Origin: Clostridia bacterium
GTDB lineage: Bacteria; Bacillota; Clostridia; Christensenellales; CAG-314
Assembly (NCBI GenBank): GCA_028698585.1
Contig: JAQVWG010000004.1
Coordinates: 1-64,000, forward strand
Direction: 5' to 3'
DNA length: 64,000 bases
The notes under the pieces are model-generated. The model searched no databases. It saw only the letters and a list, made by a program, of their open reading frames with translations, and had not been told where the DNA came from. The translations under genes and the position numbers were made by a program. This document shows, piece after piece, positions 11,854 to 58,138 of the stretch; within the stretch, counting starts at the first letter, position 1, and each line of letters starts with the position of its first letter.

Positions 11854-13221
11854 TCACTTATTAAGCACTTGCGCTTTGATATCCTTAACTTGCTTTTCGA
11901 TATTAACATTTTCTTTAATCTGTGCAGATATCTTGTCTCTTGCATGTATAATGGTGGTATGATCTCTGCCTCCGAAATACTCACCTATTGTCGACAGGGG
12001 CAGCGCGAGAAACTCGGTGATTAGATAGATACACACCTGTCTTGGTACGACTATTTCCTTATTCTTCTTCTTGCCAACTATGTCCTTCTTAGACACGTTA
12101 TAGTAATTACATACCGAGTCCACAATCTTCTCTTGTGTAATAATCTCTTTTTCATCGTTGGTGTAGTCCTTAAGGGCGCCCAGTACCACCTCTACATCAT
12201 TATAATCTCTACCCGTCAAGGTTGCGAATGATACCACCCTATTAAGTAATCCTAGTAGGTCACGCACGTTATCCATTACTCTCTCTGCCACTATCTGCAG
12301 AATCTCTTTCTTGATGTTGATACAGTCCTTCTTACAGGCGTTCTGCAGTATTGCTATGCGCAGTTCTAGGTCTGGCGATGCAATATCAGCGACTAGCCCA
12401 CTCTCGAATCTCGTCCTTAGTCTGCTTTCCAACGGATTGATTTCCTTAGGTGGTCGGTCAGAGGACAGAATAATTTGTTTACCCTCTAGATACAGGTCAT
12501 TAAATGCGTGGAATATCTCCTCTTGAGTAATAGCAAGCTTAGCAATAAACTGCACGTCATCAATCATTAAGCAGTCTACATTGCGGTATTTATTCCTGAA
12601 CTCCTTGCGCGCGTCCTTGTTTACTGAGGAGTCCTTAATGGCATCCAGCAGGTCGTTACTGAATCTCTCTGCGCTAACATATACTACCTTGAGCGAGCTC
12701 TTGTATTGCTTATAATAGTTACCTATTGCGTGCATTAAGTGCGTTTTACCCAGTCCTACCGTACCATACAGGAATAGTGGATTGTATTTACTGCCCGGCT
12801 TCTCTGCGACTGCCAGACTGGCTGCCGCCGCGAACTTGTTGCTATCCCCCACCACGAAGTTGTCGAACGTGTAGTGCTCAACGAAACTTACTACATCGAC
12901 GTCTTCGATCGCTGATTGGTTGGATACCGGTGCATCTTGCATCTTGGTTCGATACTTATTAAATACCTCTAGCTGGTCCTCTAGTATCAGTTCTACATCG
13001 ACAAGCGTTGGAAATACGGATATTGTCGCCTCTTTAATAATCTTATAGAATCGTTTAAGTATAATGTTGTAGTTGGCCTCTGTCGTCACGTACAACACCA
13101 ACCTGTTCTTGTAGATACATATAGGTTCTAGCGTCTTAATCCATAAATCAAAAGTTAGTGCCGACACTTTCTTCTCTATTTCCTCTGTTACCTTGTCCCA
13201 TATCTGCATAACACTTGCCAT
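11854..13221 (-). CDS. dnaA: Chromosomal replication initiator DnaA
   Basis: DnaA binds DnaA boxes at oriC, melts the origin and loads the helicase. The 455-residue protein has domain I (about 1-85), a short linker, and the AAA+ domain with Walker A GTVGLGKT at 153-160 and Walker B MIDDVQF. The C-terminal domain IV carries the box-recognition signature GGRDHTTIIHARD. The first Walker residue pair is GT where many DnaA proteins have GG; the GXXXXGKT pattern is intact. It points left, away from the rpmH cluster, as in other Bacillota. dnaN does not follow it but diverges from it. Confidence 0.97.
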   Translation of the reverse strand: MASVMQIWDKVTEEIEKKVSALTFDLWIKTLEPICIYKNRLVLYVTTEANYNIILKRFYKIIKEATISVFPTLVDVELILEDQLEVFNKYRTKMQDAPVSNQSAIEDVDVVSFVEHYTFDNFVVGDSNKFAAAASLAVAEKPGSKYNPLFLYGTVGLGKTHLMHAIGNYYKQYKSSLKVVYVSAERFSNDLLDAIKDSSVNKDARKEFRNKYRNVDCLMIDDVQFIAKLAITQEEIFHAFNDLYLEGKQIILSSDRPPKEINPLESRLRTRFESGLVADIASPDLELRIAILQNACKKDCINIKKEILQIVAERVMDNVRDLLGLLNRVVSFATLTGRDYNDVEVVLGALKDYTNDEKEIITQEKIVDSVCNYYNVSKKDIVGKKKNKEIVVPRQVCIYLITEFLALPLSTIGEYFGGRDHTTIIHARDKISAQIKENVNIEKQVKDIKAQVLNK

Positions 13222-13615: not shown

Positions 13616-14719
13616 ATGAGAATTGTATGCGATGGATTAACACTGGCTGATGCAGTGTTGAGAGTAAGTAAAGCATTACCGCAGAAGGTATCTAACCCAG
13701 TGCTTGAGGGCATCAAGTTGACGGCAAGAGGGGACAATCTTGTTCTGTTTGCAACCGACCTAGACTTGACTATCGAGAAAAGTATTCAAGCAGACGTCAT
13801 TACTGAGGGCGAAGTGGTTGTACCTGGCAAGTTGTTTACCGAATACACTCGTAAACTAACCAACGAGCAACAAATAGAGTTGATTTTGACCAACGAGCAA
13901 CAATTACTCATTAAATATACGGACAGCGAGGGTGTGTTGCAATGCTTAGATGGCACTGAATACCCCGCTTTTTCTCAGGAAGCGAGGGAAGACTCCTTCC
14001 TAATCGGTGAGGAAGAGTTCCAAGATATGATAAATAAAGTCATATTCTCGGTCTCGGTAGATGACGCCAGACCCATACTAAAGGGCATTTATCTAGAAAT
14101 AGAGGAGTACACTGTTACCGCTGTTGCACTTGACGGATTTCGTATGGCCATATGCAAGAAGCCGTTAGAGAAACCGGCACACAAGATGTCTGCTATCGTG
14201 CCCTCTCGCTCCATGAATGAGATATCTAAATTACTCGAGGGTGGCGACAATATAGCAACCGCTCAATTAGATGACAAGACGCTAGTAATTAAGGCTAGCA
14301 ACACCACCATATCTACCAGACTGCTTGCAGGTGAGTACATTAACTATAAACAGATTATTCCTAAGGACTACACCACCTCATTGACAATTAATAAGGAGCA
14401 ATTGACTAATGCGCTGGACAGAGTAAGTATTCTTAGCCGTGGTGAGAAGAAGAACCTCGTAACAATGGACATCAAGGAGAACCTACTAGAGATGACAGCC
14501 AACAGCGAGCTAGGCAATATCAAGGAAAACATAGGCATAAGGCTGTGGGGTAAGGATATGACAATCAGTTTTAACGCCAAGTACGTAAACGACTGCCTTA
14601 AGGTTGTACCACACGAGTTTGTGAAAATGTCCTTCATAACGTCTATTAACCCATGTATAATAACTCCCCCAGAATCGGACGAATACCTATACCTAATATT
14701 GCCTATAAGAACCATTTAA
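13616..14719 (+). CDS. dnaN: DNA polymerase III subunit beta (sliding clamp)
   Basis: The 367-residue product has the three-domain sliding-clamp layout and ends in the family's typical YLILPIRTI segment. Recognisable landmarks are GKLFTEYTRKL, RPILKGIYLEI and AVALDGFRMA. It is the processivity factor that tethers DNA polymerase to DNA. The ATG is preceded by AGAGGA about 8 nt upstream. dnaN normally follows dnaA on the same strand; here it is divergent from dnaA, and recF, yaaA and gyrB are not next to it. It is followed by its own terminator. Confidence 0.97.
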   Translation: MRIVCDGLTLADAVLRVSKALPQKVSNPVLEGIKLTARGDNLVLFATDLDLTIEKSIQADVITEGEVVVPGKLFTEYTRKLTNEQQIELILTNEQQLLIKYTDSEGVLQCLDGTEYPAFSQEAREDSFLIGEEEFQDMINKVIFSVSVDDARPILKGIYLEIEEYTVTAVALDGFRMAICKKPLEKPAHKMSAIVPSRSMNEISKLLEGGDNIATAQLDDKTLVIKASNTTISTRLLAGEYINYKQIIPKDYTTSLTINKEQLTNALDRVSILSRGEKKNLVTMDIKENLLEMTANSELGNIKENIGIRLWGKDMTISFNAKYVNDCLKVVPHEFVKMSFITSINPCIITPPESDEYLYLILPIRTI

Positions 14720-15868: not shown

Positions 15869-18376
15869 ATGAAAAAACTCATTGGACAATTAAAACTGCT
15901 TCAATGCAGTATCGTGTATTCATACGCGGTTGCGCTACTGGTACTGTTATCATCTCAATTCGGCTGGGAACTGCCAACCATTGGCATACTGTGCGCGCTG
16001 GTTATATTTACGTTATTAACCGGTAATGACACTATGACCTTGTTACCACCATTGTTTATGGGCGTAATGTGTTTTGCTAAAAGGGACGTGGTCAACTGGT
16101 ATAAAGTAGGACTACTGCCTATGTTGCCCTACTTCGGCGTGCTGGCTGTGTTAGTGGTGGCATCCGTTGTGTTCTATTGTATCAAATATCGTCCCGTTTT
16201 CAAGCCCGACCTATTGTTCTGGGGACTGGTAGCCATATCGTTAGTGCTAGTAATGGGCGGCGTATTCTACGACGGCTACAACATACTATCATTGCCAATG
16301 GGCGCGCTTTTCGCTGTGTGTTTCGTAGGTATTTACATGTTAGTTAAGGCGGGCAACAAGCACCCGTTGATGGACTACCTTGCCAAAACCATCATAGTTA
16401 TGTCTATTTTGGTGCTCGTTCAGTTGACCATAGTGTATATTGATATCAACATACTATCTAGCACCACGATGAAGAGTGTGGTATATCTGGGGTGGTGTGT
16501 GTCCAACAACGCAGCCAACGTTCTGCTACTAGGAATGCCTTTCTGCCTGTATTATGTAACTAAATCCCGCAATGGATGGCTGTATATCTTATTATCTTGG
16601 CTGTTGATGATTGGCATATTGTTTACAATGTGCCGTGGTTGTCTATTGCTCGGAGTTGCAGTGTATTATATAGGTGCGCCCATATCCATTATGTATTATA
16701 AGAAACGCCGTTTGGTTAACTGGTCGCTATATATTACTAGTGCAGTGCTGGCGATAGTTGTGCTGTTGCTTGCAACACAATTACAAAGTGGATTCATTCA
16801 GCACTACGTCGAGGGGGGGATGGATGACAGCAGTCGGTTAGAAATCTACAGAAGGGGTTTAGAATATATTTTTGGCACGGAACCGGTACTAGGTGTTGGA
16901 TTTATGGATAGACACCTAGAGCAAGTGCCGTCACTGACATACTTCTACCACAATACGTACCTGCAATTCTTAGTCAATTGCGGACTTGTTGGACTTGCGT
17001 GCTATATATTCCATAGAGTCACCACCATTATCGCAATGTTTCGTAAACCCACCAAGGACAGGTTGTACTTGTTCGTAGCATTACTAACAATCATAGGTTA
17101 CTCATTCATTGACTGTTCCTTCTTCTTCTATTACTTTGCATTCTACTATACGGCTATCCTAGTTGCAATGCAAAAGGATTACGAGAGGGTGTCTACCATT
17201 GTTGCCGAGCAACCGATTATTATTAAACGCAAACCCCGTGTGTTATTCCCCTATGTTGAGGCGGGTCTTGGTCACATAATACCTATGAGGGCTGTAGCAA
17301 ACGCATTCGATAATAAATACGGCGATAAAGTGGAAGTGGTTAGGTCTAGATTCTATGCCGAGGGAACACCGGCAATGCGCAAGTTCGAGCAGAGAATGGT
17401 TCAAGAGGTAAGGCGTTATAGCACAAGTCCGCTGTATGGAGTAAGCACATTTGACTGCATGCACTTCTTGGGTCAAGAGACATCTATGAAGTTCGTAATG
17501 AGACACCTAATAGAGAATGCCTATTCCGACAGCGTAGAGGCGATGAAATCGTTAGATGTGGATATGGTATTCTCCACCCACTGGGCAACGAGTTATGTTG
17601 CCAAGGATGTGCCCTCTGTAATACACAATATTCAATACTGCCCCGATGCAGACATGGATATGCAATGGCTGACTGGGTGTGATTTACAACTGATTAGTTG
17701 TCAAGAGGGCAGAGATAAGGCAATAGATAAACTAAATTACCCACAAGATAAGATAGAAGTTGTGCCCTGTGTAATAAGGCCCGAAGCCGAACAGATGACT
17801 GAGGGCAAACAGTTCTACAAACAGAAGTTGGGTTTGCCCACCGACAAGTTTACCATAGTGCTTGTTGATGGCGGATATGCGTGTGGTAAACTGCGCAGTA
17901 CGGTAGAGGCATTACTCTTAACCGATATGCCTATCACTGTGGTGCCTGTATGCGGCAAGAATGAGCAGTTATACCAAGAGATAAAGAATTATTCACATCC
18001 TGATAATATCACCTATGCACCCATTGGATACTGTGAGAATATGCTCGAAGTAGTGGCTTGCGCCGACCTGTTTATGGGCAAGAGCGGTGCTAACACAGTC
18101 GCAGAGTTCTGCTATTTCGGGGTGCCACAGATAATTACACTGTATGCGACACCTTTAGAGAGGGCAATAGGCGAACACTATGTCAATACAGTTGGTAGCG
18201 CGGTTAAGGCTAAGTCGGTTAACAATGCGTTAGAATACGTAAGTAATTGGTTCTATAATCGCAGTGAGTACGATAAATACGTAGAGAATGCAGTAGCTTA
18301 TCGCCACAATTTTGGTGCAGAAGAGATAGCGGACCTACTTTACAACAGACTGATGAAGTCGGTTAAAGATGAGTAA
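15869..18376 (+). CDS. Fusion of an O-antigen polymerase/ligase-like membrane domain with a MurG-like glycosyltransferase
   Basis: The 835-residue protein has two halves. Residues about 1-440 form roughly ten membrane spans. A Wzy/WaaL-type loop contains YHNTYLQFLVNCGLVGL (His361), the conserved H-N-X-X-L-Q-X-L-X-X-X-G-X-X-G pattern of O-antigen ligases and polymerases. Residues about 455-835 are a GT-B glycosyltransferase of the GT28/MurG/diacylglycerol glucosyltransferase type. That half has an N-terminal GLGHIIPMRAVANAF loop and a nucleotide-sugar-binding GKSGANTVAEF...GVPQII near 738. The chosen ATG lies 6 nt after AGGAG. The likely role is assembly or transfer of a surface glycan or glycolipid: the GT would add a sugar to a lipid and the membrane half would polymerise or ligate. 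The coupling is inference. Confidence 0.82.
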   Translation: MKKLIGQLKLLQCSIVYSYAVALLVLLSSQFGWELPTIGILCALVIFTLLTGNDTMTLLPPLFMGVMCFAKRDVVNWYKVGLLPMLPYFGVLAVLVVASVVFYCIKYRPVFKPDLLFWGLVAISLVLVMGGVFYDGYNILSLPMGALFAVCFVGIYMLVKAGNKHPLMDYLAKTIIVMSILVLVQLTIVYIDINILSSTTMKSVVYLGWCVSNNAANVLLLGMPFCLYYVTKSRNGWLYILLSWLLMIGILFTMCRGCLLLGVAVYYIGAPISIMYYKKRRLVNWSLYITSAVLAIVVLLLATQLQSGFIQHYVEGGMDDSSRLEIYRRGLEYIFGTEPVLGVGFMDRHLEQVPSLTYFYHNTYLQFLVNCGLVGLACYIFHRVTTIIAMFRKPTKDRLYLFVALLTIIGYSFIDCSFFFYYFAFYYTAILVAMQKDYERVSTIVAEQPIIIKRKPRVLFPYVEAGLGHIIPMRAVANAFDNKYGDKVEVVRSRFYAEGTPAMRKFEQRMVQEVRRYSTSPLYGVSTFDCMHFLGQETSMKFVMRHLIENAYSDSVEAMKSLDVDMVFSTHWATSYVAKDVPSVIHNIQYCPDADMDMQWLTGCDLQLISCQEGRDKAIDKLNYPQDKIEVVPCVIRPEAEQMTEGKQFYKQKLGLPTDKFTIVLVDGGYACGKLRSTVEALLLTDMPITVVPVCGKNEQLYQEIKNYSHPDNITYAPIGYCENMLEVVACADLFMGKSGANTVAEFCYFGVPQIITLYATPLERAIGEHYVNTVGSAVKAKSVNNALEYVSNWFYNRSEYDKYVENAVAYRHNFGAEEIADLLYNRLMKSVKDE

Positions 18377-56127: not shown

Positions 56128-56188
56128 ATTAGCCAAAACCTAGATATTGGTGTATAATATACGCAACAAAATAGCGAAGGTAAAGTGT

Positions 56189-58138
56189 ATGAAGAACATA
56201 GAGGAAGGGAGAGAAGTTGACCTTCATAACGATCCCCAACGTGATAAACTCAATCAATGCGCCAATGAATGTAAGGATTTGGATCTACTCAATCAATCGC
56301 GCGCATGTAAGAATAGTCTAGATAATCAAGACGACTGCATTAATAACGCTAGTTGCACCAATGGTTATGTACAGAGTGTTACTGCCAACTCTTCTATTAA
56401 GAAGATTGCTGGTCAAGCAGTATTAGAGGGCGTTATGTTGCAGAGTGCCACTTCGCTGGCGCTTGCAGTAAGAGATGAGAACGGTGATATTCGTATAGAC
56501 AGCAGAAGACTACCACCCAAGAAGAAGATAACTAGTATACCTTTCGTGCGCGGGGTAGTCAACTTCGTCAGTTCTATGGTGTCAGGCGTCAAGACACTGT
56601 TAAAGTCAGCAGATATAGTGGTTGAGGATGTAGATGTCACCGACGGCAAGTCCAATGGATTAATGTATGGCATATCCATGCTGTTGGGATTCGCACTAGC
56701 GATATTTTTATTCGTATTCATGCCCATTAAGATAACTCAGTGGATTGGATTAACCAACAATTTAGTGAGACTATTAATTGAAGGGTTGATTAAGATAGTC
56801 ATAATGTTGGCATATTTTGTATCAGTTGCACAGGTAAAGGATATTAGACGCACGTTCATGTACCACGGCGCAGAGCATAAAACTATTGCCTGCTATGAGG
56901 CAGGGGATGAGTTGACCGTGGACAACGTCCGCAAGCACAGCAGGTATCACGACAGATGTGGGACAAGTTTTATCGTTTTTGTAATGCTTATATCTATTGT
57001 CGTATCTATGCTGTTCGGCATGTTCGCAGTTTTGGTAGGATTTGACCTGTTTTTTGATAATAATATAGTCAAAACGGTAATCAAAATAGCGCTACTGCCA
57101 CTAGTTGCCAGTATCTGTTACGAAATGCTTATGTTGTTCGCCAAGAGCAATTTATTCCTGTGGCGCCCATTCAAGTGGCTAGGCAAGCAGATGCAACGCA
57201 TTACCACTAAGGAGCCTACAGACGATATGATAGAGGTGGCAATAGCCGCCCACAAGGAAGTGCAACTTATGGATGACGAACCGACAAGAGAGGAAACGCA
57301 TTTTCCAGAGGCAATCACTCTCAAGGAATATAGAAGTAAACTTCAACCACTACTAGACTATAAGACTATCGAGAGCAGTGATATAGACTGGATTCTCGTT
57401 GCAGTGCTAGGCGTTAAGAGAGACAAGCTAAGGGACGACCTTATGATACCCTATGGATATGTTATCCGTGCAGACCGAATGATTAAGCAGTGTGCTGGTG
57501 GACTTCCACTTCAATATGTATTAGGTAACACCGAGTTCTATGGCCAAGTATTCAAGGTCAATAAACACTGCTTAATACCACGAATGGAGACAGAGTTGGT
57601 GTGTGAGCAGGCAATCAATATCGCTAAAGGGCGTAAGGGCTATAAGGTGCTAGATCTATGTTGTGGCAGTGGGTGTATAGGGATAACCATTGCCAAACAG
57701 TGTGCAGGTGCACATGTTACCTGTGCAGATGTCAGCAAACAAGCGCTCGCAGTGTGCAAGTCTAATGCTAAATCACTTCAAGCAGAACTGAATATTGTGC
57801 ACAGCGATATGTTCTCAGCATTTAGTGCGCCGTTCCACATGATTGTGTGTAACCCTCCTTATATAAGGAGCGGTGATATTGCCGAGCTAGACGATAAGGT
57901 TGCTAAACACGAACCATTAATTGCACTTGACGGCGGTGAGGACGGACTGGATTACTATCGCATACTTGCTGAGCAATCCCCCAAGTATCTGTATAAGGAC
58001 GGCCAACTCGTGTTAGAGATAGGCTATGACCAAGCTGAGCAAGTCAAGGAAATACTGAATAATAACTTCATTATAGACAATATATGCAAGGATTATGGCG
58101 GTCAAGATAGAATTGTTATCGCCAAAGTGAGAAAATAA
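56189..58138 (+). CDS. prmC: DUF1385 (YqhQ-like) membrane domain fused to PrmC
   Basis: The 649-residue protein joins two normally separate neighbours. Residues about 1-70 are a hydrophilic, cysteine-rich extension. Residues about 74-320 match DUF1385/YqhQ: AGQAVLEGVMLQS, two pairs of membrane spans, MYHGAEHKTIACYEAGDELT and HDRCGTSF. Residues about 370-649 are PrmC, the glutamine methyltransferase that modifies the GGQ motif of release factors: SAM loop LDLCCGSGCIG and catalytic NPPY at 555-558. No stop or start interrupts the junction. The ATG is chosen because GAAGG lies 8 nt upstream. prfA overlaps its stop by one base. Confidence 0.93.
   Translation: MKNIEEGREVDLHNDPQRDKLNQCANECKDLDLLNQSRACKNSLDNQDDCINNASCTNGYVQSVTANSSIKKIAGQAVLEGVMLQSATSLALAVRDENGDIRIDSRRLPPKKKITSIPFVRGVVNFVSSMVSGVKTLLKSADIVVEDVDVTDGKSNGLMYGISMLLGFALAIFLFVFMPIKITQWIGLTNNLVRLLIEGLIKIVIMLAYFVSVAQVKDIRRTFMYHGAEHKTIACYEAGDELTVDNVRKHSRYHDRCGTSFIVFVMLISIVVSMLFGMFAVLVGFDLFFDNNIVKTVIKIALLPLVASICYEMLMLFAKSNLFLWRPFKWLGKQMQRITTKEPTDDMIEVAIAAHKEVQLMDDEPTREETHFPEAITLKEYRSKLQPLLDYKTIESSDIDWILVAVLGVKRDKLRDDLMIPYGYVIRADRMIKQCAGGLPLQYVLGNTEFYGQVFKVNKHCLIPRMETELVCEQAINIAKGRKGYKVLDLCCGSGCIGITIAKQCAGAHVTCADVSKQALAVCKSNAKSLQAELNIVHSDMFSAFSAPFHMIVCNPPYIRSGDIAELDDKVAKHEPLIALDGGEDGLDYYRILAEQSPKYLYKDGQLVLEIGYDQAEQVKEILNNNFIIDNICKDYGGQDRIVIAKVRK

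Follow-up and report, generated by a model that had tools for sequence, protein, structure and literature searches.

Little is known of how surface glycans are anchored to the membrane in monoderm bacteria outside the model Firmicutes, and the locus described here poses that question in a single gene: what might be done by one protein that joins a polytopic membrane domain resembling the O-antigen ligases to a glycosyltransferase? The gene lies in a 64,000-nucleotide stretch of DNA (the window; positions 1 to 64,000 of contig JAQVWG010000004.1) from a Clostridia bacterium whose genome is designated G000 here. Both halves of the protein are known folds; what is new is their covalent pairing and its lineage-specific context. 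We found no description of this architecture in the open-access library that was searched, where absence is not proof. The explanation that we favor, at about even confidence, is that the protein is a two-faced lipoglycan assembler, making a glycolipid anchor on the inner side of the membrane and loading a glycan on to it on the outer side.

The uninterrupted 835-codon frame of a preliminary description of this DNA is indeed present. It runs on the + strand from an ATG at 15869, with an AGGAG-like ribosome site immediately 5' of it, to a stop codon at 18374-18376, and has zero internal stops. Its parts, with the evidence for each, are the following.

15869..18376, + strand: the fusion gene, a putative WaaL-fold ligase half followed by an MGD1/UgtP-like glycosyltransferase half (open frame, Pfam, eight other fused genomes).
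15869..17203, + strand: N half, residues 1-445, polytopic and O-antigen-ligase-like, with ~14 predicted membrane helices (Wzy_C, Foldseek match to WaaL 7tpg, loop charges).
16634..16636, + strand: Arg256, invariant, on the predicted outer face (alignment of 17 N halves).
16775..16957, + strand: predicted outer loop, residues 303-363, with the invariant Arg323 and His361 (model, loop charges, conservation).
17204..17224, + strand: short linker, approximately residues 446-452 (boundary between the N-half and C-half matches).
17225..18373, + strand: C half, residues 453-835, a probable cytoplasmic GT-B glycosyltransferase (profile matches to the MGD1 and UgtP structures, Foldseek of the full model, conservation).
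Within 17225..18373, + strand: C-half sites EAGLGH (464-469), GKSGA (737-741) and Glu764 (residue conservation).

Two Pfam domains exceed their curated cut-offs: Wzy_C at residues 242-380 (E 2.4e-12, 47.3 bits against 31.7) and Glyco_tran_28_C at residues 688-759 (E 2.3e-9, 37.9 bits against 22). MGDG_synth (PF06925) matches weakly at 474-577, below its cut-off (E 0.077, 13.5 bits against 25). The O-antigen ligase/polymerase signature that had been noticed around His361 is thus borne out by the motif HNTYLQFLVNCGLVG, which includes that residue, as well as by Wzy_C, and the complete glycosyltransferase with a site near residue 738 corresponds to the GT-B half with its GKSGA loop.

The position next to the replication origin is likewise confirmed: just upstream are genes that we take, from their sequences, to be dnaA (11854-13221) and dnaN (13616-14719), and the fusion gene begins ~1.1 kb 3' of the latter, close to dnaA. 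As had been remarked, its neighbors are not glycan genes. A Pfam scan of 19 other window proteins turned up no other glycan-assembly gene; most are housekeeping proteins, and one belongs to glycoside hydrolase family 2.

The N half is modeled by AlphaFold2 with a mean pLDDT of 84. When that model is compared with the PDB by Foldseek, the O-antigen ligase WaaL (7tpg) is the only match below 0.001 (E 1.3e-4, probability 1.00, TM ~0.5). Profile comparison with solved chains ranks 9rmk, which is named as an oligosaccharyltransferase, best at 8.4e-16, with WaaL at 1.4e-4, the latter alignment covering the region of R323 and H361. These two residues and R256 are invariant across 17 aligned N halves, which include fused, split and lone versions, and positive charges alternate between loops in the manner predicted to place R256 and the 303-363 loop outside and the C half inside. 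O-antigen ligases use two phosphate-binding arginines and one histidine that activates the acceptor (PMC10920833); the match of R256, R323 and H361 to that set has been counted for a WaaL-type ligase. On these models the N half is an O-antigen-ligase-fold membrane domain, predicted to face outward, and sequence cannot separate ligase from polymerase. The likeness to WaaL (CAZy GT121; PDB 7TPG) extends to the fold, the Wzy_C domain and the two arginines and one histidine on the predicted outer face. In contrast with WaaL, which has 12 helices, the N half has ~14 predicted ones, only the fusion protein has a glycosyltransferase attached, and a lipid A-core acceptor is not expected in a monoderm-type host.

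The C half had been called MurG-type, and this part of the preliminary description does not stand. A profile of its family matches MGD1 at 1.5e-33, aligning along that protein from near its start; the value is 4.3e-32 for a processive diacylglycerol glucosyltransferase but 3.4e-7 for MurG, a far poorer match. The model of the full protein (mean pLDDT 88, pTM 0.72) has MGD1 (4wyi) as its best Foldseek match, at 2.8e-10. Sequence and model alike place the C half closest to the galactolipid synthase MGD1 and the diacylglycerol glucosyltransferase UgtP. MurG shares its GT28 C-terminal domain and GT-B fold, but identity with MurG was rejected: the TIGR01133 equivalog gives 37.1 bits where 250.25 are required, and contig C4 of G000 encodes a MurG-like protein apart from this one. 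The top-scoring NCBIfam family is the diglucosyl diacylglycerol synthase equivalog, yet at 61.7 bits against a cut-off of 500. Since neither the UgtP nor the MurG cut-off is reached, the C half is to be regarded as a relative, whose sugar is not assigned by sequence. What it has in common with UgtP/YpfP and plant MGD1 (GT28) is profile, fold and aligned positions of a conserved His and Glu; what sets it apart is that it reaches neither the UgtP equivalog nor the PF06925 cut-off and that it is joined to a putative membrane ligase.

The fusion recurs. A first search of 101 genomes found it at full length in G003, of the same family (f1), where residues 6-829 align at 52% identity, and in G071, of another family (f32), whose N and C halves match at 32% and 41%. 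A profile search of the order extended this to nine of 396 sampled genomes in two families (f1: G000 and G003; f32: G071, G185, G147, G161, G275, G326 and G173). Eight genomes besides G000 therefore have it, and it is no one-strain oddity; the covalent joining of an O-antigen-ligase-fold domain to a complete GT-B half, as originally proposed, is conserved in relatives. In four further genomes (G342, G217, G237 and G358) the halves are separate neighboring genes in the same order. Linkers among the relatives range from a few to ~70 residues; those of G071 and G185 are rich in Ala, Pro and Lys. Named matches are mainly uncultured Clostridia assemblies, and in a phylum-wide sample none of 398 genomes besides G000 matched at 1e-30. 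The fused N halves form three groups, and forcing them into a single clade is rejected (AU test, p 0.0017); for the fused C halves a single clade is not rejected (p 0.18). Either one old fusion was later split several times or there was more than one fusion event, and each of these histories supports a functional tie between the halves.

Family f32 offers an operon context. The recurrent gene order there is a CapD/PglF-like nucleotide-sugar dehydratase, UppP, the N half, the C half (fused or not) and a D-Ala-D-Ala ligase, some of these genes being absent or inverted in some genomes. UppP recycles undecaprenyl diphosphate, the product that such a ligase would release. A second group of f32 fusions (G161, G275, G326, G173) is located outside the UppP operon, and so are the f1 fusions. 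All seven fused f32 genomes have the initiating sugar-phosphate transferase PF02397, as against neither of the two fused f1 genomes, and the fused f32 genomes have several PF01943 flippases. (A conserved gene of ~430-450 codons lies just 5' of the CapD-like gene at L094:3107-4405, L095:239-1597 and L098:4191-5501; for the one at L094, Pfam gives no match.)

Partner genes in G000 were sought family by family. The fusion protein is its sole Wzy_C protein; UppP is encoded away from the fusion gene; the one PF01943 flippase is in a setting that resembles SpoVT-flippase-MazG; and the sole PF00953 protein is MraY, there being one PF00953 match per genome in 19 of 19 genomes tested. PF02397 was not found in G000 or G003, both ~95% complete drafts. 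Neither a dedicated flippase nor an initiating sugar-phosphate transferase was found in the window's own lineage. The earlier suggestion of a self-contained system thus holds in part: such partner genes are missing only in the window's family, whereas in f32 one group of these proteins adjoins UppP and the dehydratase, and PF02397 occurs in every fused genome. (Among f1 genomes, G024 also does without PF02397, and G006 has it. UppP appears twice in G000 with equal score and length, at C15:29597-30316 and C16:27315-28034, possibly as an assembly duplicate.)

How might a lipoglycan assembler of this kind work? The cytoplasmic C half would transfer a sugar from a nucleotide sugar to diacylglycerol or a similar membrane lipid, generating a glycolipid anchor that would then get to the outer leaflet. 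There the N half, with its active site outside, would take a glycan off a lipid-linked donor, such as one carried on polyprenyl diphosphate, and load it on to the anchor; the freed carrier lipid would be recycled by UppP. Counted for this reading are the nature of the closest C-half matches, which are lipid glycosyltransferases and speak for a lipid anchor, the predicted topology with the ligase site outside and the glycosyltransferase inside, the occurrence of the halves as fusions in nine genomes and as adjacent genes in four, the f32 operon with UppP and the CapD/PglF-like dehydratase, and the fact that none of the seven fused f32 genomes lacks PF02397. There is also a precedent in TacL (RafX) of Streptococcus pneumoniae, a Gram-positive Wzy_C protein for which a glycosyl-diacylglycerol has been proposed as the acceptor of lipid-linked teichoic acid chains (PMC5727136, PMC6456293). 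TacL, which is likened here by its description, differs from the fusion protein in being a standalone protein of 397 residues with no glycolipid synthase attached.

Our confidence goes no further than even because the choice of ligase over polymerase, the donor and the coupling between the halves are all inferred, as are the substrates, the flipping, the order of steps and the service of the C-half anchor as N-half acceptor. Set against the assembler are the match of the N-half profile to an oligosaccharyltransferase, the placement of the second f32 group and the f1 fusions outside the UppP operon, and a donor pathway whose usual signs are not visible in G000. The chief point left without explanation is that the window's lineage shows no initiating transferase, which may reflect either a donor other than undecaprenyl diphosphate or a gene overlooked in two incomplete drafts.

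The alternatives turn largely on the same observations. Since Wzy_C includes polymerases as well as ligases, the N half could be a Wzy polymerase of lipid-diphosphate-linked repeat units, to which the C half adds a repeat-unit or decorating sugar, with no diacylglycerol anchor involved; the f32 operon with its dehydratase and UppP, in genomes that have PF02397 and several PF01943 proteins, would suit such a pathway. The much greater nearness of the C half to diacylglycerol glycosyltransferases than to MurG, the match of the N-half model to a ligase, and a G000 gene complement with no PF02397 and a single PF01943 protein all argue the other way, and we consider the polymerase possible, if rather doubtful. 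Protein O-glycosylation, in which a PglL-type O-oligosaccharyltransferase would modify surface proteins with a lipid-linked sugar prepared by the C half, takes its strength from 9rmk as the best solved sequence relative of the N-half profile. It appears quite improbable to us, given that Pfam finds no PglL-specific domain alongside Wzy_C in the fused proteins, that WaaL is the sole significant structural match of the N-half model, and that a lipid acceptor is a better fit to a glycosyltransferase partner of the diacylglycerol type.

A variant confined to the window's lineage would dispense with the undecaprenyl-diphosphate donor, the WaaL-fold half using the C-half glycolipid or a simple lipid sugar in a largely self-contained system. 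The want of PF02397 in both f1 genomes, MraY as the only PF00953 protein of G000 and the setting of its one flippase are what would be expected of it, and every catalytic-type residue is nonetheless kept in G000 and G003. On the other hand, both genomes are incomplete drafts, there may be an initiating enzyme of an unfamiliar kind, and the f32 relatives have standard partners; we hold this variant to be unlikely. If true, a single protein would run a surface glycolipid system in two steps, and the WaaL fold would gain a new class of donor. That assembly error or a frameshift has fused neighboring genes, a thought that the adjacent separate genes of four relatives might encourage, is scarcely credible: the fusion is found uninterrupted in nine genomes of two families with differing linkers, and on account of those other genomes we do not regard it as an artefact.

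The lipoglycan assembler, if correctly identified, would be one testable protein that ties synthesis of an acceptor to ligation across the membrane. The natural fusion and the adjacent genes in relatives constitute "Rosetta stone" evidence for cooperation between a ligase of the WaaL/TacL type and a glycolipid synthase of the UgtP type, and the two fused f1 genomes mark a lineage that keeps such a putative ligase with no initiating transferase in sight.

A clade that is sister to the C half brings a different partner to light. In G071 a member is fused to UDP-galactopyranose mutase (811 aa, L033:5422-7857, contig G071:C9), in G048, G156, G302 and G124 the glycosyltransferase adjoins or is near that gene, and a more distant glycosyltransferase copy in G006 is also near it. 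From this fusion and closeness we infer a galactofuranosyl-lipid role, which suggests that members of the clade are candidate galactofuranosyl-lipid synthases; a search of the open-access literature for galactofuranosyl-diacylglycerol yielded nothing useful. Galactofuranose was also entertained as the sugar in G000 and dropped, the mutase family having no match in that genome. Large proteins of one cluster recur near the C-half glycosyltransferase at L033 (a glycoside hydrolase family 3 protein), L039, L040, L092, L103 and L105. Elsewhere in the window, at 56147-58138, DUF1385 and a PrmC-like methyltransferase domain occupy one frame, with a peptide chain release factor gene directly after it.
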